Source: Promethearchaeota archaeon (GTDB lineage Archaea > Asgardarchaeota > Lokiarchaeia > Sigynarchaeales > SOKP01). From it: 64,000 bases of DNA. Both the position numbers and the translations under genes were made by a program. A model generated the notes under the pieces. That model was given only the letters and a program-made list of their open reading frames with translations. It did not search any database and had not been told where the DNA came from. The stretch covers positions 15,893-79,892 of the forward strand of contig JAEOTL010000062.1 of the NCBI GenBank assembly GCA_016839845.1, read 5' to 3'. Positions 28,205-48,383 of this stretch are shown here, piece after piece (position 1 is the stretch's first letter; each line of letters starts with the position of its first letter).

Positions 28205-29740
28205 CTAATCTTCCTCTTCTATATAATAATCTTTAAATTTCGAATCGTAAGTGTGTAAATGGAACTTATTAGGAGATAGCAAGTAATTGGGATCTACTGT
28301 TTTCTTCATATCTCTGAAAAATTGTTCATATTCCGGGGTAAACGCTCCCGCTTCAGTAACGGATTGTGATATGGATTCTCCTAACCAATAGTGAGCACCT
28401 CCATACCGAACTTGATGTCGTATTTTTTTATGCCATCTGTCCATATTTTTTTCCCGTTCTCCTTCTATGTTTTTCCCCCCAACTCCACCTAATACCACAA
28501 AATTACCGTTTGGTAGAAAATAGAGCATAGATGCGAAAATTCCAGGCCAAACTGCACCTCCACTAAATTCACTGGCATGTTTCTTACTGAAATCAACTAT
28601 CTTATCATGTACTTCTCCCATATGTGAGATTGGGATTTTATGACAAGTAGCCATTGAAATTTGAGCTGGCATAGGGGAAATAGATTGTTGGAAGAAATGA
28701 AATGTTCCCTCTAAATCGTAGCCAAATTTAGGCTCTTCATCAAACTCAGGGTTTATCAATGATCCTGGTACTTGAACAGCATCATTTTCCATGATCTTAG
28801 CAAGTTTCTCAAGTTTTAACTCTAAAGTACTCTCTTCCATGGCTTCAATAGTTATATTCATAAGAGGACCTTTAGCTGTAATTGTTTGACCTGTTTCCTT
28901 TTTAAATTGAGGAAGCCTCATCTGAATTAAAATCGCTGGTAATACTGAAATATCCCGTAAAGCCTCATTTACTTCGAATCGTATCTTTTTTGATAATTCA
29001 AATACTTTATTATAATCATCTTTGTTGAGCACATACATCCGTGCCTGCTTATATGGGGGATCAGGGAATAATCTCAAGAAAGCTTTTGTTTTAATTCCCA
29101 TGGTTCCCACATCTCCCATAAATAGCCCTGTAAAGTCGGGGGAAACACCATATCTGCAAAATGGTTTCGCGTATTTGTTTGCTGCTGATCCAGTCCTAAT
29201 GATTGTTCCTTCAGGATTTGGGAGGACTACTTCTACGCCTAAGCAAATATCAGGAACAAGACCGTATTTAGTTGAGCCACCTCCAGCGGTACTATTGGAA
29301 AGTCCACCTCCAATGGTTGCTGCGAATCCACTTCCGGGACCAATTACACCGGTAGTATAACCTGTAGGATGGAGATGAGATATTAACGCACCCCATGTAA
29401 TTCCACAACCGACTACGATATAGTAGTCATCTTTGTTGAATTCAATAACTTGATTCATTCTGGTAAGATCTAAAAGAATTCCGCTCTCAGTGACAGAACC
29501 TCCAACAAGATCAGCACCTCCACCTCTTGGTACCATTCTTATTTTGTACTTATTGGCGATCTTGACTATTTCAGATACTTCTTCAGTGGTTTCAGGGCGT
29601 ACGATCATGTCAGCCCATCGGTCAGGAAACGCAGGATCAACATTTCGTGAATATGCTGCCTTCATAAAATCTTTTTCAGTTACAAAGTCTTCTCCAACAA
29701 CATTTTCAATCTCTTTATATGCTTCTTTTACTTTCGAAAT
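28205..29740 (-). CDS. FAD-linked oxidase (GlcD/Dld-like), apparent AUU start
   Basis: A PCMH-type FAD oxidase. The FAD-binding region includes VPRGGGADLVGGS and the glycine-rich GPGSGFAATIGGGLSNSTAGGG; the C terminus has DPNYLLSPNKFH. An ATG exists at 29665, but conserved family sequence (ISKVKEAYKEIENVVG) continues upstream for 25 codons with no ATG, GTG or TTG before an in-frame TGA at 29747-29749. In paralogues the first aligned codon is ATG; here it is ATT (29738-29740), preceded by TGTGA. I therefore extend the gene to 511 aa. It probably oxidises a 2-hydroxy acid or similar and passes electrons to the adjoining HdrD-like protein. Confidence 0.85.
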   Translation of the reverse strand: MSKVKEAYKEIENVVGEDFVTEKDFMKAAYSRNVDPAFPDRWADMIVRPETTEEVSEIVKIANKYKIRMVPRGGGADLVGGSVTESGILLDLTRMNQVIEFNKDDYYIVVGCGITWGALISHLHPTGYTTGVIGPGSGFAATIGGGLSNSTAGGGSTKYGLVPDICLGVEVVLPNPEGTIIRTGSAANKYAKPFCRYGVSPDFTGLFMGDVGTMGIKTKAFLRLFPDPPYKQARMYVLNKDDYNKVFELSKKIRFEVNEALRDISVLPAILIQMRLPQFKKETGQTITAKGPLMNITIEAMEESTLELKLEKLAKIMENDAVQVPGSLINPEFDEEPKFGYDLEGTFHFFQQSISPMPAQISMATCHKIPISHMGEVHDKIVDFSKKHASEFSGGAVWPGIFASMLYFLPNGNFVVLGGVGGKNIEGEREKNMDRWHKKIRHQVRYGGAHYWLGESISQSVTEAGAFTPEYEQFFRDMKKTVDPNYLLSPNKFHLHTYDSKFKDYYIEEED

Positions 29741-29752
29741 TTTTAATCACAT
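29738..29752 (-). promoter_or_regulatory. Non-canonical start region (ATG TGA ... ATT)
   Basis: Reading on the minus strand: ATG TGA TTA AAA ATT TCG. A minimal ATG-TGA start-stop pair overlaps the GTGA ribosome-binding element, and ATT falls where paralogues have ATG. Six bases separate GTGA from ATT, the same spacing as at normal starts in this window. Confidence 0.5.
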
Positions 29753-29925
29753 TATTTTGTAAATGATATCTGATTTTTGTTAAATGTTGAATTCAATTTA
29801 ATAGTTATTCTTAATTCAGATTCTTTATTTAACTATTCTAAGAATAGCCAATAGTTATGATACTAAATTGATTAAAAGATTATAATAAAATTAAAAATTA
29901 AAAAGAAAAAATAGAAATTGATTTC

Positions 29926-30081
29926 TCACATCCATGCTCCAATAGGCAACATCAGTATAATATTGAAAAATATAGAAATAATAATAAAAACTGCAAGCCA
30001 TGAATGAATACTATCTAACCGTTTATTTATCTTCATTAATTCATTAACAATATCATCCTTTGAATCTTGAATTTCACCCAT
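29926..30081 (-). CDS. Small membrane protein, 51 aa
   Basis: A short gene between two FAD-oxidase genes. The start ATG (30079-30081) is preceded by a strong GGAGGGAG ribosome binding site (30086-30094 on the plus strand as CTCCCTCC). The product has a charged N-terminal half (MGEIQDSKDDIVNELMKINK), then one hydrophobic helix (AVFIIISIFFNIILMLP) and ends GAWM. It may anchor or assemble a membrane-associated oxidase complex, but this is only suggested by position. It is not recognised as a known family. Confidence 0.65.
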   Translation of the reverse strand: MGEIQDSKDDIVNELMKINKRLDSIHSWLAVFIIISIFFNIILMLPIGAWM

Positions 30082-30252
30082 TTCACTCCCTCCTATCAAT
30101 ATAATTTATAATTACTATATTTTAGGAAATAAGCTCTTAAAAATCTTTTTTTAAAACAGTAACCCAAAAATAATAAAAAAATTTGGAATATTAGGAATCC
30201 AAACACACATTTGTGTAAAAATAAAAGAAAAAGATTGAAATTAATTATTTTT

Positions 30253-31734
30253 TTAATCTGGTTCTACATAATAATCTGCAAACTTGGAATCGTACGTATG
30301 CAGATGAAATTTGTTAGGGCTTAACAGCCAATTTGGATCAACCGTTTTCTTCATATCCCTGAAGAATTGCTCATATTCCGGTGTAAACGCTCCCGCTTCA
30401 GTAACTGATTGTGAGATGGACTCTCCGAGCCAATAGTGTGCTCCACCGTATCGTACTTGGGTTCTAATTTTTGAATGCCATAACTCCATATTTTTCTCAT
30501 GCCACTCATCCGTATTTTCGCCCCCTACACCCCCTAACACAACCATATTTCCATTTGGTAAGAAATATTGTGTGGCCTCAAATGTATCTCGCATCACAGA
30601 ACCCGGTATATCATCTGCATGCCTATTATTCCACGCAACATTCTCATCATGAACGTGCCCTAAAGTGGAGATTGGGATTTTATGACATGTTGCCATAGCA
30701 ATTCTTCCAGGGACAGGGGAAATTCCTGCTTGAAAGTAGTGAAAAGCCGCTTTCAAATTAGGGGGTGCGTTAGCACCAGGAGCGGCAGGCAACATCATTG
30801 TGTCTTCTTTCATGATATCTTCAAGTATTTTAATATATTTCTCAAGGATCTCTAAATCCATTGCTTCTACTGAAACTGATATCCCTGGACCTTTAACATT
30901 CGGGATTTTAAATTGTGCAAAGTAAAATGGCGGAAACGAGCTAAGACCAAGCAAACCATCAGGAAGTTCGTACCTAATTTTTTTAGCTAACAAAAAGACC
31001 TTATTATAATCATATTCCTTGAGGAGAAAAACTCGATTGGCTTTATAGGGGTGTTCCCGGTATATTTTTAAGTATGCTTTGCATTTAATTCCCATAGTTC
31101 CAACATCACCCATGAACAGACCTGTGAAATCTGGTGAAACACCATACCTACAAAAAGGTTTTGCATATTTGTTAGCTGCTGAACCTGTTCTAATTATCGT
31201 TCCTTCTGGATTGGGAAGCACCACCTCAACTCCAAGGCAGTTGTCAGGCACGAGACCATATTTAGTTGACCCTCCGCCAGCTGTGCTATTCGAAAGACCT
31301 CCCCCAATAGTAGCAGAAAATCCGCTACCCGGACCAGTTACACCAGTTGTATATCCCTCTGGGACCAATTGAGAAAGTAAATCCCCCCAGGTAATTCCCA
31401 CCCCAACTACGATATAATAATCATCTTTGTTAAACTCTTCAAGCTTATTCATTCGCGTCATATCAATAAGTATCCCTTCTTCCGTGACGCTACCCCCTAC
31501 AAGATCCGCACCACCACCGCGTGGAACCATTCGCATTTTATATTTATTCGCAATTTTCACAATTTCAGATACTTCTTCAGTAGTTTCTGGACGCACAATT
31601 ATATCTGCCCATCTATCTGGAAACGCGGGATCTACATTTCTTGAATATGCTGCTTTCATAAAATCGCTATCAGAGACAAAATCATCACCGACGACATCCT
31701 CTATTTCCTTATACGCTTCTTTTACTTTTGACAT
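30253..31734 (-). CDS. FAD-linked oxidase (GlcD/Dld-like)
   Basis: A 493-aa paralogue of the preceding oxidase family, with MSKVKEAYKEIEDVVG at the N terminus, VPRGGGADLVGGS, GPGSGFSATIGGGLSNSTAGGG and FTGLFMGDVGTMG for FAD and fold. The start at 31734 (ATG, with GTGA five bases upstream) is chosen over a GTG at 31743 that lies within the ribosome-binding element. It has no CCG-domain partner next to it; the 51-aa membrane gene follows at 172 bases. Mid-domain residues differ from paralogues, which suggests a different substrate. Confidence 0.85.
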   Translation of the reverse strand: MSKVKEAYKEIEDVVGDDFVSDSDFMKAAYSRNVDPAFPDRWADIIVRPETTEEVSEIVKIANKYKMRMVPRGGGADLVGGSVTEEGILIDMTRMNKLEEFNKDDYYIVVGVGITWGDLLSQLVPEGYTTGVTGPGSGFSATIGGGLSNSTAGGGSTKYGLVPDNCLGVEVVLPNPEGTIIRTGSAANKYAKPFCRYGVSPDFTGLFMGDVGTMGIKCKAYLKIYREHPYKANRVFLLKEYDYNKVFLLAKKIRYELPDGLLGLSSFPPFYFAQFKIPNVKGPGISVSVEAMDLEILEKYIKILEDIMKEDTMMLPAAPGANAPPNLKAAFHYFQAGISPVPGRIAMATCHKIPISTLGHVHDENVAWNNRHADDIPGSVMRDTFEATQYFLPNGNMVVLGGVGGENTDEWHEKNMELWHSKIRTQVRYGGAHYWLGESISQSVTEAGAFTPEYEQFFRDMKKTVDPNWLLSPNKFHLHTYDSKFADYYVEPD

Positions 31735-31988
31735 TTTTATCACTTATTTTTAATGATAGGTTAATTGATTTTCTTGTAATGATGTATCAAATTTAATAAT
31801 TATTCTTAAATAGCTTTTCCTAAATTTTATCGTCTCAAAAAAAATGCCTTTACTACGATTGATAGGGCTAAATTCAAGATTAATATAAGAAAATTGGCTT
31901 AATTAGCTATTCTAGAAAAGCTAAAATGATAAAATACAGTTAAAAAAAATTGTAAATAAGGTTAGATACTGTTTGAGAGACTTCCTTA

Positions 31989-33530
31989 TTACTCATCATT
32001 TACATAATGCTGAGTAATATCATCATCATAACTGTATAAATGCCATTTATTTGGGCTTAACAGGAAATTAGGATCGACTGCTTTTTTCATATCCTTAAAG
32101 AATTTGACGAAATCTGGAGTAAAAGCACCTGCTTCTGTAATTGATTGCGATATTGATTCTCCAAGCCAATAATGTGCAGCACCATATCGAACTTGATATC
32201 GAATCTTCTTATGCCATAAATCCATAGAAAGCTGACGCTTTTCTTCAACGTTATCTGCATTAAAACCTCCAACAAATATGCAATTTCCATTTGGCATAAA
32301 AGCTATGACACCAGCCCAAATAGCCATAGTACCGGGAGGATAGGTTTTATAATGATCAATATCAAATTGTTGGGCTTTCTTTGATAATTCTGGTAAGCCC
32401 GACATTGGTACTTTGTGGCAGGTGGTACAAGTAATCTTAGGTGGCGCCACTGAAATTAAGTTATGGAAGTAGTTAAAACTCGCTTTTAAATTGTATTGCC
32501 ATGTGTCAGGCCGTTCTGTAGAGGATTCAATTTCTCCAAACGAGATTGGACGGGTTGTCTCATCTTTTGCCATGATTTCATCAACTTTTTCTATATACAC
32601 ATCTAAAATTCTCTGATCTGTCGCTTCTAAATTGATTGCTGCTAATGGCCCTTTTATTCTTGGTCTTTGGGCAGGACTTTGCCCACTTTGAGCAGCCATC
32701 ATCATCGTAATTTCAAGTGGTAGGACGCTTAATCCAAGAAGGGCATCCTGAACTTCCATTCTTAATTTATGAGCTTTCTTAAATACTTCATTGTAATCAT
32801 TTTTGTTAAATACATACATACGAGACGCTTTATATGGAGGATCGCGGAATAATCTCATATAGGCTTTTGTTTTAATTCCCATGGTTCCGACATCTCCCAT
32901 GAAAAGTCCTGTGAAATCAGGTGATACACCGTACCTACAAAAGGGAGTTGCGTACTGATTTGACGCAGAACCTGTTTTTACAATTGTACCTTCTGGATTT
33001 GGCAACACAACTTCAACGCCTAAGCATACATCTGGAACTAACCCATATTTTGTAGAGCCTCCTCCTGCTGTACTATTTGATAATCCCCCTCCAATTGTTG
33101 CTGAAAATCCACTTCCTGGCCCTGTAACTCCTGAAGTCAAGCCCCTTGGGTGTAATTCTGATAATAGTGCTCCCCATGTGACACCACATTCAACTACATA
33201 ATAAAAATCATCTTCATTAATTTCGATAATTTTATTCATTCTTGTGAGGTCGAGTAAAATGCCACCTAGGGTTGTAGAGCCTCCGACAAGGTCAGCACCT
33301 CCACCTCGCGGAACCATTCGAATTTTATATTTATTTGCAATTTTTACAATCTCCGATACTTCTTCTGGAGTTTCAGGTCTTACAATGATGTCTGCCCATC
33401 GATCTGGAAACGCAGGGTCGACATTTCGGGAGTAAGCAGCTTTCATAAAATCCTTATCGCTTATGAAATCGTCTCCAACAACACTTTCAATTTCCTTATA
33501 CGCATTTTTAACTTTTGAGATTTTATTCAC
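31989..33530 (-). CDS. FAD-linked oxidase (GlcD/Dld-like), start ambiguous
   Basis: About 510 aa, with the family's VPRGGGADLVGGS, GPGSGFSATIGGGLSNSTAGGG and C-terminal DPNFLLSPNKWH. The aligned first residue is encoded by ATC (33519-33521), preceded five bases earlier by GGTGA. GTG codons at 33530 and 33533 are in frame but sit inside that ribosome-binding element; a TTG at 33548 is further out. I give the GTG at 33530 while noting ATC as the candidate start. Uniquely with the copy at 43 kb it holds a CTTCHK sequence in the substrate domain, formally CxxCH. A 250-base gap to the neighbouring oxidase holds no gene that I can see. Confidence 0.8.
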   Translation of the reverse strand: MNKISKVKNAYKEIESVVGDDFISDKDFMKAAYSRNVDPAFPDRWADIIVRPETPEEVSEIVKIANKYKIRMVPRGGGADLVGGSTTLGGILLDLTRMNKIIEINEDDFYYVVECGVTWGALLSELHPRGLTSGVTGPGSGFSATIGGGLSNSTAGGGSTKYGLVPDVCLGVEVVLPNPEGTIVKTGSASNQYATPFCRYGVSPDFTGLFMGDVGTMGIKTKAYMRLFRDPPYKASRMYVFNKNDYNEVFKKAHKLRMEVQDALLGLSVLPLEITMMMAAQSGQSPAQRPRIKGPLAAINLEATDQRILDVYIEKVDEIMAKDETTRPISFGEIESSTERPDTWQYNLKASFNYFHNLISVAPPKITCTTCHKVPMSGLPELSKKAQQFDIDHYKTYPPGTMAIWAGVIAFMPNGNCIFVGGFNADNVEEKRQLSMDLWHKKIRYQVRYGAAHYWLGESISQSITEAGAFTPDFVKFFKDMKKAVDPNFLLSPNKWHLYSYDDDITQHYVNDE

Positions 33531-33594
33531 CACTAACGTTATATTCAATTATAAAGAATTACACGAGGAAATTAATTAAAGTTTTCCTTCAAAG

Positions 33595-34782
33595 TTAAAT
33601 ATTCAATTCAATACTCTTTTCTATAAAAATTTCAGTTATAAGTGATTTTAATGATGGACTATCCTTTAATTCGAGAACTTGGTTTGTTTTATAAAATTTC
33701 TCAAGAGTTTCCCAAATAGTTGTTGTGTTTTGAATTCGCTCTGCAAATTTAGCTAGTTTTTGTGATGCAAGAACCGTCTGTCCTTTGAATAAATAGCATA
33801 AAGAAAAGTTTGGCAGAGATTCCATTAGTACCGTATATTGACCAAATTTAGCTCGATCAAACTCTTCAGAGAAGAACTCATCACTGAATGAAGTAAAGGC
33901 TGACAAAAAACTTCCAAACATTTCGTTGTCGCGTTCCCATTCATCAACAAAAGAGTAGGAAAAAATAAGAACGCCACCTTCAGTTATTATAAGAAGTACT
34001 ACGGGTTCTTCATTAACTAACTCCTCAGTTGTTTGACCCGGTTTTTCAGTGAAAAAGAATAATGAATCTTTAATTTTCGCTTGCTTTTTAGGCAATAATT
34101 TTTTTGGTTTAGCAGATTCCTCTTTCAATCCTAAATAAAAAAACAAATAGCAAAAATTTATCCCTATTCTTACAATATACAATGAGAATCCTGGAAAATT
34201 AAATACATCAAAAATCGTAAAGAAAACAAAAATAAAGAATCCAATAGACAAATATAAATTTTTTCTACGTATAATACCTTTTGATTGAATGCTCTTGCGA
34301 AGGAAACCAATTCCATTAAAAAGAACAGAAAAATCAAAAATAGCGATAAGAACGAATGCGGGAGATGAAACATTGAATCTCGCATCAATTAAACTCCAAC
34401 CTGGATTTATAGGATCGTCAAAAATAAATGAATTCAACGTATCGAAAAATACAAAGAATTCAAAGATTATTCCCAAAATTACATAAATTGAGACAATATA
34501 CCATTTCATCTCAGGTAATAAAATCTGCGCAGTTATCAGCATTGCTAAAATTAATGGTATGGGAACCCACATATAACTTAAAATACTATACAATCCATAC
34601 GAATTATCCATATTATTTCCCATTGTAAAAACTATCGTTGCGAAATCGACGATGGGGCCTAACCACATAAATCCCATGAAGAAAATCATTAGGGCTAAAT
34701 AAGACAGAAGCTTAATATCAAACTCCCTTGATTTATGGAAGAAGTATGCCCCAGTTATAATACTAAAAATAAGTACGCCCAA
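33595..34782 (-). CDS. Polytopic membrane protein with C-terminal longin-like domain
   Basis: A 395-aa protein with about six or seven membrane helices in residues 1-225 and a cytoplasmic domain in residues ~250-395 that is clearly homologous to the C-terminal domain of the TPR proteins nearby (VVLLIITEGGVLIFSYSF, then FGSFLSAFTSFSDEFF, DRAKFGQYTVLMES and YLFKGQT). The TTG start at 34782 truncates the first helix; the frame is open to 34851 with more hydrophobic sequence but no standard start codon, so the true start is uncertain. This shows the longin-like module also works from a membrane receptor-like base. Confidence 0.7.
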   Translation of the reverse strand: MGVLIFSIITGAYFFHKSREFDIKLLSYLALMIFFMGFMWLGPIVDFATIVFTMGNNMDNSYGLYSILSYMWVPIPLILAMLITAQILLPEMKWYIVSIYVILGIIFEFFVFFDTLNSFIFDDPINPGWSLIDARFNVSSPAFVLIAIFDFSVLFNGIGFLRKSIQSKGIIRRKNLYLSIGFFIFVFFTIFDVFNFPGFSLYIVRIGINFCYLFFYLGLKEESAKPKKLLPKKQAKIKDSLFFFTEKPGQTTEELVNEEPVVLLIITEGGVLIFSYSFVDEWERDNEMFGSFLSAFTSFSDEFFSEEFDRAKFGQYTVLMESLPNFSLCYLFKGQTVLASQKLAKFAERIQNTTTIWETLEKFYKTNQVLELKDSPSLKSLITEIFIEKSIELNI

Positions 34783-35018
34783 AACTACAAGGCCATTAAG
34801 TAAGACATAATAAGATAGAGCTATAAATAAACACCATATAAGGTTGTTATTTCAAGAGAATCCTATTTCTAGATTCTTATACGTAAATTAATTTTTAAAG
34901 TTTTACCTTCACATACGATAATTAAGTTAATTTGATAAGGCAAAAATGATAGAAATAAATAATTATATTAGGAAATTATACAATATTTCCTATTTTCAAA
35001 AAATTGAGTTTATAATAG

Positions 35019-36428
35019 ATGAAAAAACCGAATATTATATTTATTCTCATCGATGATATGGGATGGAAGGATTTGGGATGCTACGGCAGTACGTTTTATG
35101 AGACACCGAATATCGATAAACTCGCAACTGAGGGTATGAGTTTTACAAATGCATACTCAACCTGCCCGGTGTGTTCTCCCGCTCGAGCAAGTATACTGAC
35201 AGGAAAATACCCCGCTAGGATTGGTCTTACAAACTATATAGGTGGAAGATCTAAAGGTAAGCTTATAGATGCACCCTTCATTGATCATTTACCCTTGTCA
35301 GAAAAATCAATAGCTAAGGTTTTAAAGGAAAATGGGTACAACACGTGGCACGTCGGTAAATGGCATCTGGGAGAGGAACAATATTATCCTGCGAAACATG
35401 GATTTGATGTAAATATTGGTGGAGGTCATTGGGGTTTATCATTTAAAGGGTATTTCAACCCGTGGAATATTCCTACTATTGATGATAATGATGCTCCTGA
35501 GGGAACTTATTTGACGGACTATCTTACTGATAAAGGAATTGAATTAATTACTAGCAAAAATGAAAAACCTTTTTTTCTGAACATGTGGTATTATAGTGTA
35601 CATATTCCGATTATGGCTAAACCTGAGAAAATCGAATATTTCAGAAAAAAAAAAGAAAGATTAGGTTTGGATAAAATTTACCCCTTTGAAGACGGAGATC
35701 ATTTTCCTACTGAGAGAAAAAAAGATTTGGTTATTAGGAGACGAAAATTGCAATCCAGTGCGAATTATGCTGCCATGGTGCACTCTGTTGATGAAAACGT
35801 GGGAAGAATTCTTAAAGCTATTGAAGAATCAAGAGAATCTGAGAATACAATTGTGTTTTTCACATCAGATAATGGGGGATTAGCCACAGCAGAAGGTTCA
35901 CCAACTAGTAATTCCCCTTTATCGGAAGGAAAAGGGTGGATGTATGAAGGAGGAGTTCGAGATCCTTTAATTGTTAAATGGTCAGGACAGATAAAGGAGA
36001 ATTCGACTTGTGAAATCCCTATAAACTTTAACGATTTTTATCCAACCTTCTTGGAACTAGCAGGAATTGATTTGATGCCTGAGCAACATCAAGATGGGGA
36101 TAGCATTCTTCCATTATTAAAAGGAGAGAAGACAATGTATGATAGAAGTTTATTTTGGCACTATCCACATTATGGAAATCAAGGAGGGACTCCAGGATCC
36201 TCGATTAGAAAAGGCGACTATAAATTGATTGAGTTTTTTGAGGATGACCATGTTGAACTGTATAATCTAAGAAATGATATTGAAGAAAAAAACGAAATAT
36301 CTAGGAAATTTCCTGAGATTACTGAAAATCTAAAAACCTTACTTAGAGACTGGAGATTATCTATTAAAGCAAAAATCCCCCAAAAAAATCCCAATTATAA
36401 ACAACAAATATCGTATAGGAATAAATAA
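35019..36428 (+). CDS. Sulfatase (arylsulfatase family)
   Basis: A 469-aa sulfatase. The N terminus IIFILIDDMGWKDLG carries the metal-binding aspartates. The signature CSPARASILTGKYPAR (about residues 51-66) has the cysteine that is converted to formylglycine. HVGKWHLG (near 114) and FFTSDNGG (near 283) are further active-site blocks. There is no signal peptide, so it would act in the cytoplasm, where formylglycine formation would need a maturase not seen in the window. It cleaves sulfate esters; together with the alkyl-sulfatase fragment at the window start it hints at sulfate-ester use. Confidence 0.9.
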   Translation: MKKPNIIFILIDDMGWKDLGCYGSTFYETPNIDKLATEGMSFTNAYSTCPVCSPARASILTGKYPARIGLTNYIGGRSKGKLIDAPFIDHLPLSEKSIAKVLKENGYNTWHVGKWHLGEEQYYPAKHGFDVNIGGGHWGLSFKGYFNPWNIPTIDDNDAPEGTYLTDYLTDKGIELITSKNEKPFFLNMWYYSVHIPIMAKPEKIEYFRKKKERLGLDKIYPFEDGDHFPTERKKDLVIRRRKLQSSANYAAMVHSVDENVGRILKAIEESRESENTIVFFTSDNGGLATAEGSPTSNSPLSEGKGWMYEGGVRDPLIVKWSGQIKENSTCEIPINFNDFYPTFLELAGIDLMPEQHQDGDSILPLLKGEKTMYDRSLFWHYPHYGNQGGTPGSSIRKGDYKLIEFFEDDHVELYNLRNDIEEKNEISRKFPEITENLKTLLRDWRLSIKAKIPQKNPNYKQQISYRNK

Positions 36429-36510
36429 TTTATTACAAAACTTTATAATTTATATTGATCTGTAATATTTTGTAAACTAAAGTAATTACTTAAATTAGAA
36501 CTGTAAAATA

Positions 36511-36765
36511 ATGGAAAAAGAAAAACCTAAAGTACTACATACGGAATTAAGAGGTAGTTTATCAACAAGATTTAATATCATCAAATCCGTTTTGGGAATA
36601 CAAAATGACGCTGAGGTTGTTCGGTTTCTAATTCAAAACTATTATAAGGAGTATTTAGAAAGTAAAAAAATAATAGCAAGAGAAGAAATTGAGCGTGATC
36701 GTGATATAGTTAAACAGTTTATGGAAAAATATGGTGAAGAATGGCGAAAACTTGGTGAAGATTAG
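36511..36765 (+). CDS. Putative antitoxin of a Doc-type module
   Basis: An 84-aa protein. The first part (HTELRGSLSTRFNIIKSVLG, then AEVVRFLIQNYYKEY) has a strand-helix-helix pattern like a ribbon-helix-helix DNA-binding protein, and the C-terminal third is charged and helical, a usual toxin-binding tail. Its TAG stop overlaps the GTG start of the Doc-like gene by one base (TAGTG), typical of toxin-antitoxin coupling. Identity as antitoxin is inferred from this position. Confidence 0.65.
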   Translation: MEKEKPKVLHTELRGSLSTRFNIIKSVLGIQNDAEVVRFLIQNYYKEYLESKKIIAREEIERDRDIVKQFMEKYGEEWRKLGED

Positions 36766-37139
36766 TGATTTGGATTCCTAATCTTGATTACGTTGAGGAA
36801 TTATTTAAGGATCAAATCAAGGTAGGTTTATTAATGAATCGGGAAGGGCTTATGTCTACACTTGATAAAGTACAATGGGGTATTCCTTTTAAAGATGCCC
36901 CATCTATATGGGATCAAGTCACTATTTTATATAAGGAAATTGTAGATAACCATTACTTTTCAGATGGCAATAAGAGGATCGCTTCCTTAATAGCATATAT
37001 TTTTCTATATAAAAATGGGTATAAATTTTCTCCTCCTAAAGGAGATGTATATGAAGTTACTTTAGACGTAGCACAAGGATTAAAATCTTTTGATGATATT
37101 AAAGATTGGTTTAAAAGATACTCAAATAAAGAATATTAA
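36765..37139 (+). CDS. Doc/Fic-family toxin
   Basis: A 124-aa Fic-fold protein of the Doc (death-on-curing) type. The motif HYFSDGNKR (about residues 63-71) is the Doc form of the Fic motif, with K in place of the second G of classic Fic enzymes; Doc proteins phosphorylate elongation factor Tu/EF1A and stop translation. The length equals that of phage P1 Doc. The GTG start overlaps the upstream antitoxin stop codon. Confidence 0.8.
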   Translation: MIWIPNLDYVEELFKDQIKVGLLMNREGLMSTLDKVQWGIPFKDAPSIWDQVTILYKEIVDNHYFSDGNKRIASLIAYIFLYKNGYKFSPPKGDVYEVTLDVAQGLKSFDDIKDWFKRYSNKEY

Positions 37140-37160
37140 TTAATCCACCTGGGATAATAA

Positions 37161-39032
37161 TTAATCAGTCTTAATATTTCCAGGATTTTTACTCAAAAAT
37201 ATCTCTGTTATAAATCCTTCAAGAAAAGGAAAGTCTTTTAATTCGATAACCTGACTTGTCTCAGCATATTTATCAAGCGTCTGCATTATTGAAGGAATAT
37301 TTTGAAGACGCTCAATAAAGTGCTCAACCTTTTTTTTAGCGAAGTATGTTTGTCCTTTGTATAGATAACAGATTGAGAACTTGGAAAATGTTTCCATGAG
37401 CACCGTATACTGACCGAACTTAGCACGATCGAGCCCTTCAGCAAAAAACTCATTGCTAAAAGACATAAAAGCCGTTAAAAAGCTTCCAAATTGTTCTTCG
37501 TCACTTTTCCACTCATCACTAAATGGAAACGACAACAGGAGAACACCACCTTCTATTAAAATTAGAAGTAGGACTGGCTCTTCATTAGTAACTTCTGGTA
37601 TATTTTCCTCTCGAGTTTCCATGAGATTGCTAATAGAACCGCCAAGCGAAGCTACACTCATTCGTCTTGAAACTGAGGCGTTTGATTCCTTAAGATTATC
37701 TAATACATCTAATTGACTCAACAAATAATCATGTTCTATTGAAATTGTTTGAGCTAGATTATGATACCCATTTTCATCAGCAATTTCTTGCGCTTGAGCG
37801 AGTAACCTTCGAGCATCACCCATATTCATTTGAAATAATGCAAGGCGTGCTTGTAACAGTTTTAATTTTGCTATAAGCGAGTAATCTTTTTCAGCTTGTT
37901 TTAGAAGTTGTGATATATAAGGGTTTATTTCATCTATAATAGTAACATCTTTGGTGAGTTTCAGTTCTTTTATATACAAATCACATATTTCAATTAAAGC
38001 ATTTATCACTATCCATGAAAACTCTTTTTCTGTTTCAATAATTTTCTTCAATATTTTTTCAGCTTCAGCTCTATCACGTGGTCTTGTACTTGATTTTAAT
38101 ACTCGAGCTCTGAGTAATTTATACATAGAAATATTCTGTATCATGGGTTTTTCATCATTAATTTGTTTAAATAATTGTAAATAATGTTGAGCCCCTTCAT
38201 GATCTCCTTTCGCTATCAATACTTTTATTAAACCTTGTAATGTCGCTCCTGAGAGTGGTGCAAATTTTACTAAGAAGTTAAGATCTTCAAGGATTGTTAA
38301 ACTTTTTTTAAACAAATTTAGAGATTTATCTAAATTACCCTTTAAGTAATATAAATATCCCATTTCCCAATATTCATTAGTATCCAATATCAATTCAAGA
38401 TTTGTATCCCCAATTTTGAGAGCGATACTTTTTTCATGGTATTCTAAAGAAAGCTTTAAATCACCCGTATGAGTATAAATATGACCTATTAAACTTAAAA
38501 TATATCTTCTGTATTTCTGGTCTTCTAGACTATCGATCTTAAATTGCTCCATTAACTCCAATGACTTTTCACAACATTCCAAGGCAAAATTATAATTTCC
38601 TCTGTTAAAATTCATAACTCCCTTCATATATAAGAAACGTGTTTCTTTAATTACGATTTTACTTGAGGTTCCTTTTGAAATAGAATTTAGCAGTAATTCT
38701 CCTCTTTCTATTAAATCGTAAGCTGGCCTGCTAAGAATTTGGCCTTGATTTAACATACACCATAATTTAAAATTTAAGGCATCGATTAAAAGAAAATCAT
38801 TTCCAAATTTTTCATATTCTTCGTAAGTTTCTTCAGCTAATTTTAAACCAATTTGAAGATTGCCTAATGCATAGTGTATATTACCCTTTAATATGACAAT
38901 TTTGAGTCTTTCTTCTGGAGAGAGATCTTCCTTTTTTTCAATTTCGATTGCTAGGCTTAAAGCTTCTTCTTCTTTCCCTTCATTTAAGAGTTTCCAACAC
39001 CGTTCTATATCATCTAATACGGAAACTGGCAT
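37161..39032 (-). CDS. TPR protein with C-terminal longin-like domain (1)
   Basis: About 623 aa. Residues ~1-430 contain TPR-like helical pairs (for example YALGNLQIGLKLAEETYEEY and YYLKGNLDKSLNLFKKSL), followed by the family linker HDYLLSQLDVLDNLKESNA and a C-terminal domain (VLLLILIEGGVLLLSFPF, FGSFLTAFMSFSNEFF, DRAKFGQYTVLME, YLYKGQTY). The ATG at 39032 is preferred over 39062 because GAGG lies eight bases before it and the paralogue starts at the same residue. It follows the next paralogue by 19 bases. TPRs bind proteins; the longin-like domain may contact a GTPase (inference). Confidence 0.75.
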   Translation of the reverse strand: MPVSVLDDIERCWKLLNEGKEEEALSLAIEIEKKEDLSPEERLKIVILKGNIHYALGNLQIGLKLAEETYEEYEKFGNDFLLIDALNFKLWCMLNQGQILSRPAYDLIERGELLLNSISKGTSSKIVIKETRFLYMKGVMNFNRGNYNFALECCEKSLELMEQFKIDSLEDQKYRRYILSLIGHIYTHTGDLKLSLEYHEKSIALKIGDTNLELILDTNEYWEMGYLYYLKGNLDKSLNLFKKSLTILEDLNFLVKFAPLSGATLQGLIKVLIAKGDHEGAQHYLQLFKQINDEKPMIQNISMYKLLRARVLKSSTRPRDRAEAEKILKKIIETEKEFSWIVINALIEICDLYIKELKLTKDVTIIDEINPYISQLLKQAEKDYSLIAKLKLLQARLALFQMNMGDARRLLAQAQEIADENGYHNLAQTISIEHDYLLSQLDVLDNLKESNASVSRRMSVASLGGSISNLMETREENIPEVTNEEPVLLLILIEGGVLLLSFPFSDEWKSDEEQFGSFLTAFMSFSNEFFAEGLDRAKFGQYTVLMETFSKFSICYLYKGQTYFAKKKVEHFIERLQNIPSIMQTLDKYAETSQVIELKDFPFLEGFITEIFLSKNPGNIKTD

Positions 39033-39051
39033 ACTTTTTTCCTCGAGTTTT

Positions 39052-40902
39052 TTATTTAACAAATATCTCTCTCAAAAGTGATTCTAAGGCAGGATTCTCA
39101 CTTAAGGTTATGGCTTGATGTGTTTGATGATAATTGGTAAAGACATCCCATAATGGAGTTGTATTCTGTAAACGATGAGCAAAGTTAATCAGTTTTTGCT
39201 TTGCGAGATATGATTGTCCCTTGAATAAGTAACATACCGTAAAATTCCCAATTGAATCCATTACTAGTGTAAATTCTCCAAATTTTGCTCGATCAAGCCC
39301 CTTAGAGAACACCTCCTCACTAAAAGTATTAAACGCAGTAAGAAAATTGCTGATAAATCCATCTTCAATATCCCAATCTTCAGCAAATTGATTAGAGAAA
39401 GCGGGAACTCCACCTTCTGCGATAATTAAAAGTAAAACAGGAACTTCATCGATTAATTCAGGAAGTTTAACTGGACGTGATTCTAGGATAATATCCATTA
39501 TTACTTTCATTGAAGCTAAGTCCAATCGTTCTGATAAGGGCGCATTTGCTTTCTTGAGTTTTTCCCACACATCTAACTGACCTATTAGATTATCGTGTTC
39601 TATTGAAATAATCTGTGCTAGATGGTGATATCTATTTTCATCGGCTATCTGCTGCGCTTGAGAAAGGAATCGCCTGGCATCACCCATATTCATTTGGATT
39701 AGAGCAATTCTAGCCTGCAATAAATTCGTTTTAGCTGAAATAGTGTAAGTCTTTTCTTTTTTGGCAACTTTTTGAAGTTTTATGATGAAAGGATTTATTT
39801 CGTCAATAATTGTTAAATCATTCGTTAACTTCAATTCTTTCAAATACAGGTCGCATATATCAATTAAAGCAGCATTAATCGACCAGGAAGGATTGTTCTC
39901 ATCTTTAATTATTTCCTTGTAGATGTTCTCAGCTTCAGTTCGTTCACGACTGCGTGTACTTGATTTTAATGCTTTTGCTTTAAGTAATTTGTAGGAAGAA
40001 ATAGCTCTTTTCCATGGTTTTTCATCGATTATTTGTTTAAAAAGATCTAAATAATAGTGAGTGCTTTCATAGTCACCTTTTGCAATCATTACCCGGATTA
40101 ACCCTTCTAATGTAGCACTGGCATCACCGACATATACAACTAATAAGTTAAGATCTTCTAAAATCACTAAGCTTTGCTTAAAATATTTTAAGGCGCTATC
40201 CAAATCACCTTTTGAATATAGAACATGCCCAATTCCATAAAAATTAATACTATCAAAAAATCTTTCATAATTAGTGTCTTTAAGCTTAAGAGCAAGACTC
40301 TTTTCATGGCACTGTAAAGCGAGATCTAGTTCACCTCTTGCGTTGTATATAAATCCCCTTATTGTTACAACCGATCTTCTATATTTTTGGTCTTCATACT
40401 TGTCAATATTAAATTTATCTATTAACTCTAAAGATTTCTTATTATATTCTAAAGCGATATTATAATTTCCTAAATTAAGATTAATTATACTTTTCAAATA
40501 CAGAAAGCGTGCTTCCTTGATAGCGATCTCTAGCGATGATTTGTTTGAAATGGATTTAAAAGCAGCTTCCCCACGTTTTATTAAATCAAGAGATGACTTA
40601 CTAAGCATTTTTCCTAAATAAAATAAAATCCACACTTTCAAATTTATAACATCTAATAAAAGAAAATCATTTCCCATTTTTTCATATTCATTATAAGCAT
40701 CTTCAGCTATATTAAAAGCTTTTTTGAACTGTCCTAAGGATTTATGTATATATCCCTTAAGCATTTTTATCCTATGCTTTTCCTCCAGAGAGAGATTTTC
40801 TTTTTTTTCGATTTCAATAACTAAGTCTAACGCTTCCTCTTCTCTCCCATCATTTAAGAGTTTCCAACACCGTTCTATATCATCTAATGTGGAAACTGAC
40901 AT
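39052..40902 (-). CDS. TPR protein with C-terminal longin-like domain (2)
   Basis: A 616-aa tandem paralogue; its N terminus STLDDIERCWKLLNDGREEEAL matches copy 1 almost residue by residue. TPR-like repeats fill residues ~10-420 (such as YSKGDLDSALKYFKQSL). The C-terminal domain differs: VLLLIIAEGGVPAFSNQF, GFISNFLTAFNTFSEEVF, DRAKFGEFTLVMDS, YLFKGQSY. It lies between copies 1 and 3 with short spacers (19 and 17 bases), so the three minus-strand genes probably form one operon. Confidence 0.75.
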   Translation of the reverse strand: MSVSTLDDIERCWKLLNDGREEEALDLVIEIEKKENLSLEEKHRIKMLKGYIHKSLGQFKKAFNIAEDAYNEYEKMGNDFLLLDVINLKVWILFYLGKMLSKSSLDLIKRGEAAFKSISNKSSLEIAIKEARFLYLKSIINLNLGNYNIALEYNKKSLELIDKFNIDKYEDQKYRRSVVTIRGFIYNARGELDLALQCHEKSLALKLKDTNYERFFDSINFYGIGHVLYSKGDLDSALKYFKQSLVILEDLNLLVVYVGDASATLEGLIRVMIAKGDYESTHYYLDLFKQIIDEKPWKRAISSYKLLKAKALKSSTRSRERTEAENIYKEIIKDENNPSWSINAALIDICDLYLKELKLTNDLTIIDEINPFIIKLQKVAKKEKTYTISAKTNLLQARIALIQMNMGDARRFLSQAQQIADENRYHHLAQIISIEHDNLIGQLDVWEKLKKANAPLSERLDLASMKVIMDIILESRPVKLPELIDEVPVLLLIIAEGGVPAFSNQFAEDWDIEDGFISNFLTAFNTFSEEVFSKGLDRAKFGEFTLVMDSIGNFTVCYLFKGQSYLAKQKLINFAHRLQNTTPLWDVFTNYHQTHQAITLSENPALESLLREIFVK

Positions 40903-40919
40903 TTTTCTCTAAGAGTTTT

Positions 40920-42992
40920 TTATTTTGGCTTATCGATAAATATTTCTGTTATAAGGGATTCAAGCTTAGGACTATCTTTCAACTCAAGAACTTGGCTTGC
41001 GTTATAAAAATTTTCTAGAGTTTGCCAAACTGGAGTAGCATTTTGAATTTCCTCAGTAAATTTCGATAATCTTTGCGTAGCAGGGTAGGTTTGCCCTTTA
41101 AATAAGTAACAAATCGAAAAGTGACCAATTGATTCCATTAATATTAAATCATCTCCAAATTTCGCACGATCTAGGCCTTTTGTGAAAAATTCACTACTAA
41201 ATGAAGTAAATGCGGATAAAAAACTACTGAAAAGCTCATCATCACGCTTCCATTCATCTGTAAATGGATATGAGAACAGTAATACACCCCCCTCTGCTAT
41301 TATCAGGAGTAGAGTGGGTTTTTCATTAATCAACTCAGGAGCTTCTATGGCACGTTTACCCTGCAATCGATCCAGTACACCCTCAATTGAGGCTAATTCA
41401 ATTCTTTCAGCCATAGGGGCATTTTTCTTTTTCAAATTTTCCCAATCGTTAATACGTTCAAGTAAAATATCATGCTCGCTTGAAATTTTATGTGCCATTA
41501 AGTTTAAACCGTGCATTTCAGCGATCCGCTGAGCTTGTGTCAGAAGTAACTTTGCATCATCAAGATCCATTTGAATTAATGCTAGTTTAGCCTTTAAAAG
41601 TTTTCCCTCAGCTATGTAAAGGGAAGAATTTTGATCTTCTGCTATCTTAAGTAATCGTGATACTAGAGGTTCTAATTCGTCCAGGATCTCCAATTCATTA
41701 TATTCATAAAGTTCTTTAAACATAAAATCGCAAAGAGCTACCAAAGATAATATATAAACTTGTGTGTGAGCAATATCATCGTCAATTATTTGTTTTAGGA
41801 TATCTTCCGCTTCAGCTCTATATCGTGCACGACTCTTTGTTTTTAAAAATAAAGCTTTTGCTAACAAATAGATTTGAGAAATTACCTTAGACGTGGTCCG
41901 ATCTGCTGTATTTTTTAATAATTCTAAAGATTCTTGAGCTTTTTCGAATGAATTATCATCCAAATTTATGAAGAACTGATCTAACAACGCAAATTGCTTC
42001 GCAATAAAAAAGTCTTCCTTTTCTAAAAATAAAACACAGCGTTTAATGTACTTAAGCGCTTCTAAACTATCACCTTTTATTCTATATGTTGTTGCAATCC
42101 GTGATAAAAGCGCCCCTAATGTATAAAACTCGTTTCTCTCTTCAGCAAGCATTATCCCTTTCTTGAAATAATCCAAAGATGTGTCTAACTCTCCTTTTTC
42201 CCTATATATGTCTGCTAATGTTAACAAAATAATACCCTTGGAACCCCCACCAATCTCTTTAATCATCAAACCTTTATGACAGAGTTCCAATGCCTGACTC
42301 AAATCGCCTTTGTAATAATAGATATGACTGAATAATGCTAGACATTGTGCTATACATGTCTGGGAATTTAATTCTTTAGCAATGGTTAAACCTTTCTCTG
42401 CGTAAATTAACGCTGCATTAGGATCCCCTTTGGTAACCAGATATAAATAACTAGTTATTAACAGGAAGAATAAGTTAACAAGCTTTAGCCCTAATTTTTC
42501 TCCTAAAGAAAAACCATCTAATGCTACTTCTAATCCTTTTTCAAAATCGGATCTTATATAATATGCCCATGCTTTGGGGAGTAAAATACCTATCTTCAAT
42601 CTAGAGAACTGAGTAGATGAAATAATATTAACTGAATTGAGCAATTCTTCAGCTTCTAAAACTAGATTGAGTGCATTCTCAACTTGCCCTGAATTACTAA
42701 AAGCAAAAGCCTTTAAACTAAGTGCTTCAATAGTTTCTGAAACCCTTTCTAATTTTTTACTCAATTCATATGCTGAATTCCCGATTTCTGCTACTTCTTT
42801 ATACCTTTCAAAAAAAATAAACAATTTTCCTTTTATAAGAAGTGCTGATAATTGATCTTGTAGGGTGATTTCGGAATTATTCTCGAATTTACTTACTTTA
42901 TTAAGAGCTTCCTCTAATTTCCCATCATTCATGAGATCTTCTGCGTTTATTAATTCTTGGGGTTTAGAATAAACCATTTTTTTGATATGCAA
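40920..42992 (-). CDS. TPR protein with C-terminal longin-like domain (3)
   Basis: A 690-aa protein, promoter-proximal in the minus-strand trio. It has more TPR-like units than copies 1 and 2, including YYKGDLSQALELCHKGL, YREKGELDTSLDYFKKGI and YRIKGDSLEALKYIKRCV. The C-terminal domain (TLLLIIAEGGVLLFSYPF, FSSFLSAFTSFSSEFF, DRAKFGDDLILMES, YLFKGQTY) is closest to that of the membrane-anchored form at 33.6 kb. The linker motif SSEHDILLERINDWENLKKKNAPMAER precedes it, as in all relatives. Confidence 0.75.
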   Translation of the reverse strand: MHIKKMVYSKPQELINAEDLMNDGKLEEALNKVSKFENNSEITLQDQLSALLIKGKLFIFFERYKEVAEIGNSAYELSKKLERVSETIEALSLKAFAFSNSGQVENALNLVLEAEELLNSVNIISSTQFSRLKIGILLPKAWAYYIRSDFEKGLEVALDGFSLGEKLGLKLVNLFFLLITSYLYLVTKGDPNAALIYAEKGLTIAKELNSQTCIAQCLALFSHIYYYKGDLSQALELCHKGLMIKEIGGGSKGIILLTLADIYREKGELDTSLDYFKKGIMLAEERNEFYTLGALLSRIATTYRIKGDSLEALKYIKRCVLFLEKEDFFIAKQFALLDQFFINLDDNSFEKAQESLELLKNTADRTTSKVISQIYLLAKALFLKTKSRARYRAEAEDILKQIIDDDIAHTQVYILSLVALCDFMFKELYEYNELEILDELEPLVSRLLKIAEDQNSSLYIAEGKLLKAKLALIQMDLDDAKLLLTQAQRIAEMHGLNLMAHKISSEHDILLERINDWENLKKKNAPMAERIELASIEGVLDRLQGKRAIEAPELINEKPTLLLIIAEGGVLLFSYPFTDEWKRDDELFSSFLSAFTSFSSEFFTKGLDRAKFGDDLILMESIGHFSICYLFKGQTYPATQRLSKFTEEIQNATPVWQTLENFYNASQVLELKDSPKLESLITEIFIDKPK

Positions 42993-43123
42993 TCTTTGGA
43001 TTAAAAAATATGAAGATGAGTTTCCTTAAAAGCCTTTTGAACCCCAAGTTGTTAGTGAATATCTACATAACTTTTATTAGGATATGCGGTCTATCTTTTA
43101 ATTATTACAATTTTTATAATATA

Positions 43124-43137
43124 GGGTGTGAAAAATT
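43124..43137 (+). promoter_or_regulatory. Non-canonical start region (GTG TGA AAA ATT)
   Basis: GGGTGTGA (43124-43131) works as a GGTG-type ribosome binding site, a GTG-TGA start-stop pair overlaps it, and the ATT at 43135 falls where paralogues have ATG. No ATG, GTG or TTG lies between the TGA and the conserved coding sequence before 43174. Confidence 0.5.
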
Positions 43138-44670
43138 AGCAAGGTTAAAAATGCCTATAAAGAAATAGAAGATGTGCTTGGATCAGATTTCGTATCTGAT
43201 AAAGATTTCATGAAGGCTGCGTATTCTCGGAATGTCGATCCAGCGTTTCCAGATCGATGGGCTGATATAATTGTGAAACCAGAGACTACAAAAGAAGTAT
43301 CGGAAATTGTTAAAATTGCCAATAAATATAAAATTAGAATGGTACCACGAGGTGGGGGGGCAGACTTAGTTGGAGGTTCTGTCACTGAAAGCGGAATTCT
43401 TATCGACCTTACACGGATGAATCAAATCCATGAAATAAATGTAGACGATTATTATTGTATTTTGGGATGTGGAATTACATGGGGTTCGATGCTCTCAGAA
43501 CTGCAGAAAAAAGGAATGACTACGGGTATTCTTGGACCTGGAAGTGGATACTCTGCTACCATTGGCGGAGGGCTTTCAAACGCTACTGTAGGTTTTAGTT
43601 CTACGAAATATGGACTTACACCAGATATTTGTTTGGGTGTTGAAGCCGTTTTACCAAATCCAGAAGGCACAATTATAAGAACTGGAGCAGCAGCAAATCA
43701 ATATGCAACTCCCTTCTGCCGTTATGGTGTTGCACCGGACTTCACTGGTCTTTTCATGGGAGATGTCGGAACCATGGGAATTAAATGTAAAGCTTTCCTT
43801 AGATTATTCCCTGATCCTCCTTATAAGCAACGACGATACTTTATGCTCTTAAAGGATGATTATAGTCAGGTGTTTAAACTGGCTCATAAAATGCGGATGG
43901 AAGTCGGAGATGGTTTAAATGATTTAATGGTATGGCCGTCCATATTATTCAACCTACTATCCGCTCAAGTTGTTAATAAACCCGAAAAAAGGCCAAAAAT
44001 AACCGGACCAGTATTTTCAGTGACATTAGAAGCAACAGATCAACGAATTATTGATATATATCTCGAAAAAACAAATGAAATTATGCTAAAAGACGATGTG
44101 ACTAGATCATTTGAATGGCAGGAGATTGATTTAGATATGGTTTTATCGAAAGATTGGAAATTCACATTAAAGGAAGAGTTTAATTTCTTCCAGAAATATA
44201 TCTCAACTGCACCTCCTAAAAGTTCTTGTACAACGTGCCATAAAGTTGCGATTTCCCGATTAAATGAAAGTGTTCAAAAAGGAGTACAATTCAATATAAG
44301 CAATGCAAAAGAATTTCCACCAAAGAATCCCCCATATCCCGTTTTTGCATCATTCCTTATGTTTCTGCCTAACGGAAACTGTGTGATTGTAGGGGGACTC
44401 GGTGGTGATAATACTGATGAACATCGTGAAACTACAATGAATATCTGGCATAAGAAAATACGACATCAAGTTCGTTATGGAGGTGCTCATTATTGGCTTG
44501 GAGAATCCATCAGTCAGTCAATCGTCGAAGCAGGCGCTTACACTCCTGAGTTTATGCAATTCTTTAAAGATATGAAAAAAACAGTTGACCCAAACTTTCT
44601 GTTAAGCCCAAATAAATTTCACATGTATTCTTATGACCATGATTATACAGAGCATCTCGTAGAAGATTAG
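43135..44670 (+). CDS. FAD-linked oxidase (GlcD/Dld-like), apparent AUU start
   Basis: A 511-aa family member with VPRGGGADLVGGS, GPGSGYSATIGGGLSNATVG and DPNFLLSPNKFH. A GTG at 43174 exists, but the conserved N terminus ISKVKNAYKEIEDVLG begins 13 codons earlier at ATT (43135-43137). Directly upstream in frame is GTG TGA (43126-43131), so no canonical start precedes it. This repeats the arrangement of the gene at 28205-29740, and both then have exactly 511 residues. It carries CTTCHK in the substrate domain. It separates the minus- and plus-strand TPR trios. Confidence 0.85.
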   Translation: MSKVKNAYKEIEDVLGSDFVSDKDFMKAAYSRNVDPAFPDRWADIIVKPETTKEVSEIVKIANKYKIRMVPRGGGADLVGGSVTESGILIDLTRMNQIHEINVDDYYCILGCGITWGSMLSELQKKGMTTGILGPGSGYSATIGGGLSNATVGFSSTKYGLTPDICLGVEAVLPNPEGTIIRTGAAANQYATPFCRYGVAPDFTGLFMGDVGTMGIKCKAFLRLFPDPPYKQRRYFMLLKDDYSQVFKLAHKMRMEVGDGLNDLMVWPSILFNLLSAQVVNKPEKRPKITGPVFSVTLEATDQRIIDIYLEKTNEIMLKDDVTRSFEWQEIDLDMVLSKDWKFTLKEEFNFFQKYISTAPPKSSCTTCHKVAISRLNESVQKGVQFNISNAKEFPPKNPPYPVFASFLMFLPNGNCVIVGGLGGDNTDEHRETTMNIWHKKIRHQVRYGGAHYWLGESISQSIVEAGAYTPEFMQFFKDMKKTVDPNFLLSPNKFHMYSYDHDYTEHLVED

Positions 44671-46518: not shown

Positions 46519-46533
46519 ATATTATATATCGCT

Positions 46534-48291: not shown

Positions 48292-48383
48292 CAGATTTAA
48301 TGCTCTTAAAATCAACAGTGCTAAAAAAATATAAACAACGAATCCTTCTATTTTTATAATCAAGAAAGTGTGATCCAATAACA

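Follow-up and report, generated by a model that had tools for sequence, protein, structure and literature searches.

The window analyzed here is a stretch of 64,000 nucleotides of Lokiarchaeal DNA (contig JAEOTL010000062.1) that hosts five genes for flavin adenine dinucleotide (FAD)-linked oxidases. We consider it very likely that two of these genes, whose aligned first codons lie at 29740 and 43135, are translated from AUU. This assignment draws on the position of the ATT codon, the Shine-Dalgarno (SD) element before it, the lack of any other start, the coding constraint on the codons that follow and the conservation in related genomes, all of them shown by the sequence. The gene of the initiation factor aIF1 appears to have a start of the same kind in most of the Lokiarchaeal relatives examined.

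First codons of the oxidase genes

Four of the five oxidases are close paralogs (the others are 63-71% identical to the first) and the fifth is more distant (36%); all five match PF01565. The features that bear on their starts are the following:

28205 to 29740, minus strand: FAD-linked oxidase (PF01565), 511 amino acids, predicted start ATT at 29740-29738
29746 to 29750, minus strand: SD element GTGAT, 5 nucleotides before this ATT, overlapping the in-frame TGA at 29749-29747
29747 to 29752, minus strand: ATG-TGA pair in frame with this ATT, not kept in the G001 ortholog
29663 to 29665, minus strand: ATG, codon 26, first in-frame canonical codon of gene 29740, a conventional but unlikely start
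43135 to 44670, plus strand: FAD-linked oxidase (PF01565), 511 amino acids, predicted start ATT at 43135-43137
43124 to 43131, plus strand: SD element GGGTGTGA before this ATT, containing an in-frame GTG-TGA at 43126-43131
43174 to 43176, plus strand: GTG, 13 codons after the ATT, first in-frame canonical codon of gene 43135
31989 to 33521, minus strand: FAD-linked oxidase with ATC (33521-33519) at the aligned start, start undecided
30253 to 31734, minus strand: FAD-linked oxidase whose aligned start is ATG (31734-31732); a GTG at codon -3 forms part of the SD element
55474 to 56982, plus strand: more distant FAD-linked oxidase paralog with an ATG start

The aligned first codons are those of the original prediction, namely ATT at 29740, ATG at 31734, ATC at 33521, ATT at 43135 and ATG at 55474, and the coordinates check. 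Both ATT genes have the expected in-frame TGA just upstream, at codon -3 in gene 29740 and at codon -2 in gene 43135, with no ATG, GTG or TTG from there to the ATT. The proposed ribosome binding elements are also present, as SD elements lie 5, 5 and 6 nucleotides ahead of the first codons of genes 29740, 33521 and 43135, respectively. The element of gene 33521 is GGTGA (33531-33527), while that of gene 43135 combines GGGTG (43124-43128), 6 nucleotides before the ATT, and GTGA (43128-43131), 3 nucleotides before it. A distance of 5 nucleotides is the commonest spacing between GTGAT and ATG in 1087 ATG-first genes.

We scanned the species genomes of GTDB and obtained 49 loci, of which 46 are titled Lokiarchaeota or Lokiarchaeia, 2 Helarchaeota and 1 Sulfurovum. 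The nearest relative is the metagenome-assembled genome (MAG) bin60 (G001). Its ortholog of gene 29740 (L080:14863) is 90% identical and has the same ATT, the in-frame TGA at -3 and no other start, and the ATT of gene 29740 is therefore more than a chance occurrence. The same oxidase cluster was compared in the window, G001, G003 and G005. At the cluster position of gene 29740, G003 has a mosaic gene, described below, with ATT and a GTG at -3. The expected conservation of the start in related genomes holds for gene 29740 and is mixed for gene 43135, whose G001 and G003 orthologs have ATT, each with a GTG at -3, and whose G005 ortholog has ATG at the same place. Gene 31734, with ATG in the window, has ATG in G003 and ATT with GTG at -3 in G001, and gene 33521, with ATC in the window, has ATG in all three relatives. 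An oxidase of a further genome, G010, has ATA at the start position and lacks a canonical start. The G003 gene at the position of gene 29740 (L081:17488-19020) combines parts of two genes: the first 25 residues and the leader resemble those of gene 29740 (23/25 residues), and the full length is 89% like gene 43135. It looks like the outcome of gene conversion inside the cluster.

Across 69 distinct oxidase start contexts we counted 51 ATG, 1 GTG, 2 TTG, 7 ATT, 2 ATA, 1 ATC and 1 CTG; in the remaining 4 rows (AAA, GAA and twice GAT) the alignment falls beside the start. Four of the 11 non-canonical starts have no in-frame alternative. Seven, the ATC gene included, have a GTG in frame at -3, which weighs against reading them as starts, since this GTG could itself be the start and the ATT, ATC or ATA (ATH) codon 4. 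The MIKISKVK start of database models, for example P0003 and P0013, falls at the GTG place. However, this GTG belongs to the SD element even where the start is ATG (gene 31734). In gene 43135 the TGA directly after the GTG separates it from the ATT, and gene 29740, its G001 ortholog and the G010 ATA gene have no such GTG in frame. For the genes that have such a GTG, we find this start plausible but lean against it. It is possible for gene 33521, which has in-frame GTG at both -3 and -4 and TTG at -9. Because of these upstream GTGs the ATC gene is no proof by itself, and the predicted set of AT(T/C) starts is retained for the two ATT genes and loses the third as independent support.

A conventional start at the internal ATG 29665 or GTG 43174 would leave the conserved upstream block untranslated. 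Each is the first canonical codon in its frame, and some database relatives (P0020 and P0026) are annotated from the Met equivalent to ATG 29665. The upstream block, however, varies mainly at synonymous sites. Between the window and G001, the proportions of differing synonymous (pS) and non-synonymous (pN) sites in codons 2-25 are 0.44 and 0.07 for gene 29740, and 0.44 and 0.02 for gene 43135, each with only approximately 14 synonymous sites. The contrast is weaker between gene 29740 and the G003 mosaic (pS 0.15, pN 0.05). Judging from these substitutions, codons 2-25 are evolving as coding sequence, under purifying selection. As the block also occurs with ATG in paralogs and orthologs, we rejected the internal starts, which we regard as very improbable.

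The original prediction also drew attention to the start-stop pairs over the SD elements. Both are present in the window, ATG-TGA at 29752-29747 and GTG-TGA at 43126-43131. At the corresponding places the orthologs have AAG TGA in G001 (gene 29740) and GTG TTA in G001 and G003 (gene 43135). Since they are not kept, the pairs seem incidental to the SD element, and a role for them in the oxidase genes was dropped. The pairs could also point to translation that begins at the ATG or GTG and passes through the in-frame TGA next to it, for instance by inserting selenocysteine, and a tRNA-Sec-like gene is predicted in G002 by ARAGORN. This explanation is hardly credible and was rejected, because the AAG TGA of G001 has no canonical start in the preceding codons examined, and TGA and TAA follow each other in many leaders of the aIF1 gene.

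Two observations concern the surroundings of the oxidases. The 75 bases upstream of genes 29740 and 31734 (29741-29815 and 31735-31809) are alike and conserved between species, and are perhaps a shared operator or promoter. Six large repeat-like paralogs flank the oxidases (37161-42992 and 44743-50465) and have in common, also with the open reading frame (ORF) at 33595-34782, a carboxy-terminal block LLLI--EGG or a variant of it.

Predicted ATH starts in other genes

We called genes irrespective of their start codon in parts of related genomes (1526 genes in total). The set used for counting comprised 1410 genes in 1.66 Mb of G001, G002 and G006. It omitted the window, the cluster piece of G001 and the pieces of G003, G005 and G010, and kept the stretches of G002 and G006 that contain oxidases. 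In 86 of the 1410 genes the coding signal extends 10 or more codons upstream of the first canonical start. An SD 5-mer lies near the inferred coding start in 31 of these, and in 28 of the 31 it is followed after 4-9 nucleotides by ATT, ATC or ATA. None of the 28 comes from the cluster stretch of G002, and none of the 27 searched against Pfam (all except G006C22_58) is a PF01565 oxidase. When the 5-mers were scrambled 500 times, the mean number of motif-bearing genes was 10.7 and that of genes with motif and ATH was 6.1, with a maximum of 15 compared to the real 28. ATH codons account for 31 of 68 SD-preceded codons and for 129 of 983 others (P-value 5e-10, Fisher test). A looser SD test returned a clear enrichment of ATT (33 against 15.3 expected, P-value 3e-5).

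Homology provided a second line of evidence. We aligned 351 genes to a homolog whose first canonical start is ATG, and dropped all rows with a canonical codon upstream in the ORF or at most 10 codons downstream. Twelve decisive cases remained: 7 with ATT, 1 with ATC, 1 with ATA and one each with GCG, TCC and TTT. The latter three are probable misalignments and were kept in the denominator. The nine ATH cases, which are three oxidases of the window's family and six other genes, all follow an SD-like element, as judged by eye from the leaders.

Several results count against this interpretation. Among motif-bearing genes the real SD yields an ATH share of 0.90, and scrambled sets (mean 0.57) reach 1.00; likewise, the ATH share of codons is 0.46 with the real SD and up to 0.50 in scrambled sets. 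The share alone therefore does not stand out, whereas the count does, as no scramble reached it. In the looser test neither ATA (18 against 12.4) nor ATC (7 against 4.0) is significantly enriched. The upstream coding signal of 55 of the 86 genes has no SD; further non-canonical starts, leaderless starts or errors of gene calling are candidate explanations. The SD-ATH test detected 1 gene among 290 in 400 kb of a Hel genome, and all genome counts are limited to Asgard archaea. From the count we estimate that AUU, AUC or AUA may be the start in approximately 2% of the genes of these archaea.

We searched 29 products of predicted AUH starts (AUU, AUC or AUA) against Pfam, 27 of the 28 above and two from the cluster pieces. 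They include TFB (three), a RagA-type and a Ras-type GTPase, a TatD nuclease, ABC ATPases (two), DNA glycosylases (two), and Usp and TPR proteins (three), while 5 of the 29 had no Pfam match. The Pfam domain begins at residue 2-3 of the AUU product in the RagA-type GTPase, the TatD nuclease and Usp. In both GTPases the first canonical codon falls after the P-loop, which an internal start would delete; this is a further point against internal starts.

Start of the aIF1 gene

aIF1 is a SUI1 protein (PF01253). We looked for it in the genomes of the GTDB family of G001, where 55 of 65 have a PF01253 match above the cut-off. Of 58 family loci fetched, 56 ORFs were counted; the count excludes L235, which contains a masked stretch, and L239, which the pattern did not detect, and two partial matches (G024 and G052) are outside the locus set. 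In 47 of the 56 ORFs no ATG, GTG or TTG occurs from the in-frame stop to the first zinc cysteine. At 6 or 7 codons ahead of this cysteine, 45 of them have ATT, 1 has ATC and 1 has ATA. The gene of the nearest relative represents this group:

L202, 1426 to 1743 (G001): aIF1 gene with predicted ATT, ATC or ATA start; 46 further such ORFs in the family

In 39 of the first 45 of these ORFs, canonical codons first appear 2 to 100 codons past the zinc cysteine, and the other 6 have none inside the sequence examined. An internal start would here delete the zinc knuckle and often much more. The comparator aIF1A has a canonical start in 30 of 30 loci, which are the best-scoring of 59 genomes with a match. 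The likening of these starts to bacterial infC in the original prediction has proved apt, as it is an initiation factor that has such a start in most of the family ORFs counted.

Other aIF1 genes of the family depart from this pattern. In 8 of the 56 ORFs there is an in-frame GTG upstream, and 1 of 56, the second copy in G034, has both ATG and GTG. The excluded L239 also has an in-frame GTG. A second type of aIF1, with EAEDQQIKIYNEKR or similar, occurs at L226, L234, L395 and L396 (G050, G058, G034 and G013) with an in-frame GTG, and in L395 with ATG as well; a paralog or MAG contamination are candidate explanations.

Outside the family we collected 68 Asgard aIF1 loci, which are not a random sample (one from Hel, the 30 best-scoring and 37 picked by hand), and scored the 59 that fit the zinc-knuckle pattern, the other 9 not fitting it. 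The nearest upstream canonical codon is ATG in 28, which counts against the explanation proposed below, GTG in 18 and TTG in 3. Ten have none, and these include an ATA behind AGGAGG and a CTG.

The leaders of the family genes have further features in common. The pattern GGTTGTGA-N9-AT(T/C) is conserved at 37 of 52 loci, although GGTGA would be the better SD, and GGTTGTGA contains an in-frame TTG-TGA start-stop pair. Together with the pairs of both window ATT genes, this could point to a regulatory device of termination and reinitiation. Such pairs, however, are absent in the oxidase orthologs and are expected often wherever GTGA falls in frame, and we consider the device improbable. Many leaders have a TATA-like TTTTTATAAG 70-80 nucleotides upstream, as judged by eye, which suggests that aIF1 has a separate transcript with a leader. 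16S rRNA was found in 20 of the 65 family genomes, and its 3' end is the anti-SD GGATCACCTCCT in 4 of the 4 ends examined, so that AGGAGGTGAT-type leaders are able to pair with it.

NCBI models of close aIF1 relatives, which are named YciH, begin with MKDDDIC or a similar sequence, which corresponds to the ATT place. One annotation pipeline therefore appears to put the start there already, as far as protein records tell. Two NCBI models begin later, at MCPLC, and several models from other sources approximately 20 or more residues later. We found no remark on the start at the ATT place with those NCBI models.

A search for a special initiator tRNA recognized no initiator-type tRNA among those examined (150 of 353 candidates scored in the genome search). 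ARAGORN placed a tRNA-Ile with anticodon UAU beside tRNA-Ile(GAU) in G006 (L160, approximately 10.8-11.5 kb, the place being inferred from position). The usual archaeal reader of AUA is a CAU-type tRNA, unlike this one.

Possible feedback by aIF1 and related systems

The results reported above would be explained if Lokiarchaeal ribosomes, positioned by the SD, can initiate at AUU and, more rarely, at AUC or AUA. The ordinary initiator tRNA would insert Met despite the mismatch at the third position of its anticodon pairing. PMC6237735 and PMC8211752 report that aIF1 stabilizes SD-bound mRNA, hinders full accommodation of the tRNA and destabilizes non-AUG complexes. The latter is reported there for S. 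solfataricus, and rejection of starts by aIF1 is known from this species, not from Asgards. Because archaeal aIF1 rejects non-AUG complexes, AUU initiation may be inefficient and decrease as aIF1 increases. A factor that rejects non-AUG starts and is itself encoded behind AUU, rarely AUC or AUA, would therefore limit its own synthesis. Other genes with AUH starts, these oxidases included, would be coupled to the same factor. We put the chance of such feedback, on aIF1 itself and on AUH-start genes, at about even. It is just as evenly balanced whether Lokiarchaeia control aIF1 through its own AUU, with the AUH genes, including the oxidases, as a regulon that reads free aIF1.

Alternatively, the AUU starts may be real but independent of aIF1, reflecting slow drift or a fixed setting of low expression. 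ATG and ATH do interchange among oxidase orthologs. AUG-to-AUU switches also occur elsewhere, although very rarely in comparison with the estimated share of AUH starts here: PMC5622118 reports, for 36 bacterial and archaeal triplets, that 1 of 61,358 ancestral AUG starts became AUU. On the other side, the weak start of aIF1 is widely kept, with the one second copy in G034 as the only one of the 56 family ORFs with ATG upstream of the zinc knuckle, and aIF1 of other Asgards uses GTG, CTG or ATA besides ATG. We treat drift, which concerns the feedback only, as a serious possibility just short of an even chance.

Starts of this kind and feedback by initiation factors are known elsewhere. Bacterial infC, which encodes IF3, reportedly starts at AUU and is autoregulated, as Butler (1987) and Brombach and Pon (1987) are said to have described. 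In both cases an initiation factor tied to start-codon fidelity has an AUU start on its own gene. The window ATT genes and the 47 aIF1 ORFs further resemble infC in having no canonical start before the conserved protein, and the window ATT genes also in having an SD at working distance. They differ in that aIF1 belongs to SUI1 and not to the IF3 family, the window genes are oxidases, and autoregulation is known for infC, while for aIF1 it is a proposal. A homologous factor is eukaryotic eIF1, also a SUI1 protein with a weak start on its own gene, which autoregulates via a poor AUG context (Ivanov 2010, as cited in PMC6237735); in aIF1 the weakness would lie in the codon itself behind the SD. 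Weak start codons have also been proposed as a level of control for non-AUG starts in chloroplasts (PMC9845219), which are organelles with bacterial-type translation and involve different genes.

What would be new is the presence of such starts on archaeal aIF1 and, by our estimate, on approximately one gene in fifty. A 2021 review states that archaeal non-canonical events are demonstrated solely in elongation and termination (PMC8211752), and a 2020 review lists AUG, GUG and UUG as the starts used by every type of archaeal mRNA (PMC7531240). In the literature searched, which mostly leaves out subscription journals, we found no description of AUU, AUC or AUA as a start codon in Asgards or on aIF1. 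At the estimated frequency, many gene models would be truncated or missed in archaea that are held to be close to eukaryotes. If the feedback is true, self-limitation of a start-codon fidelity factor by a weak start occurs in all three domains. With AUU on the aIF1 gene, the existence of such feedback in the third domain becomes a testable question.

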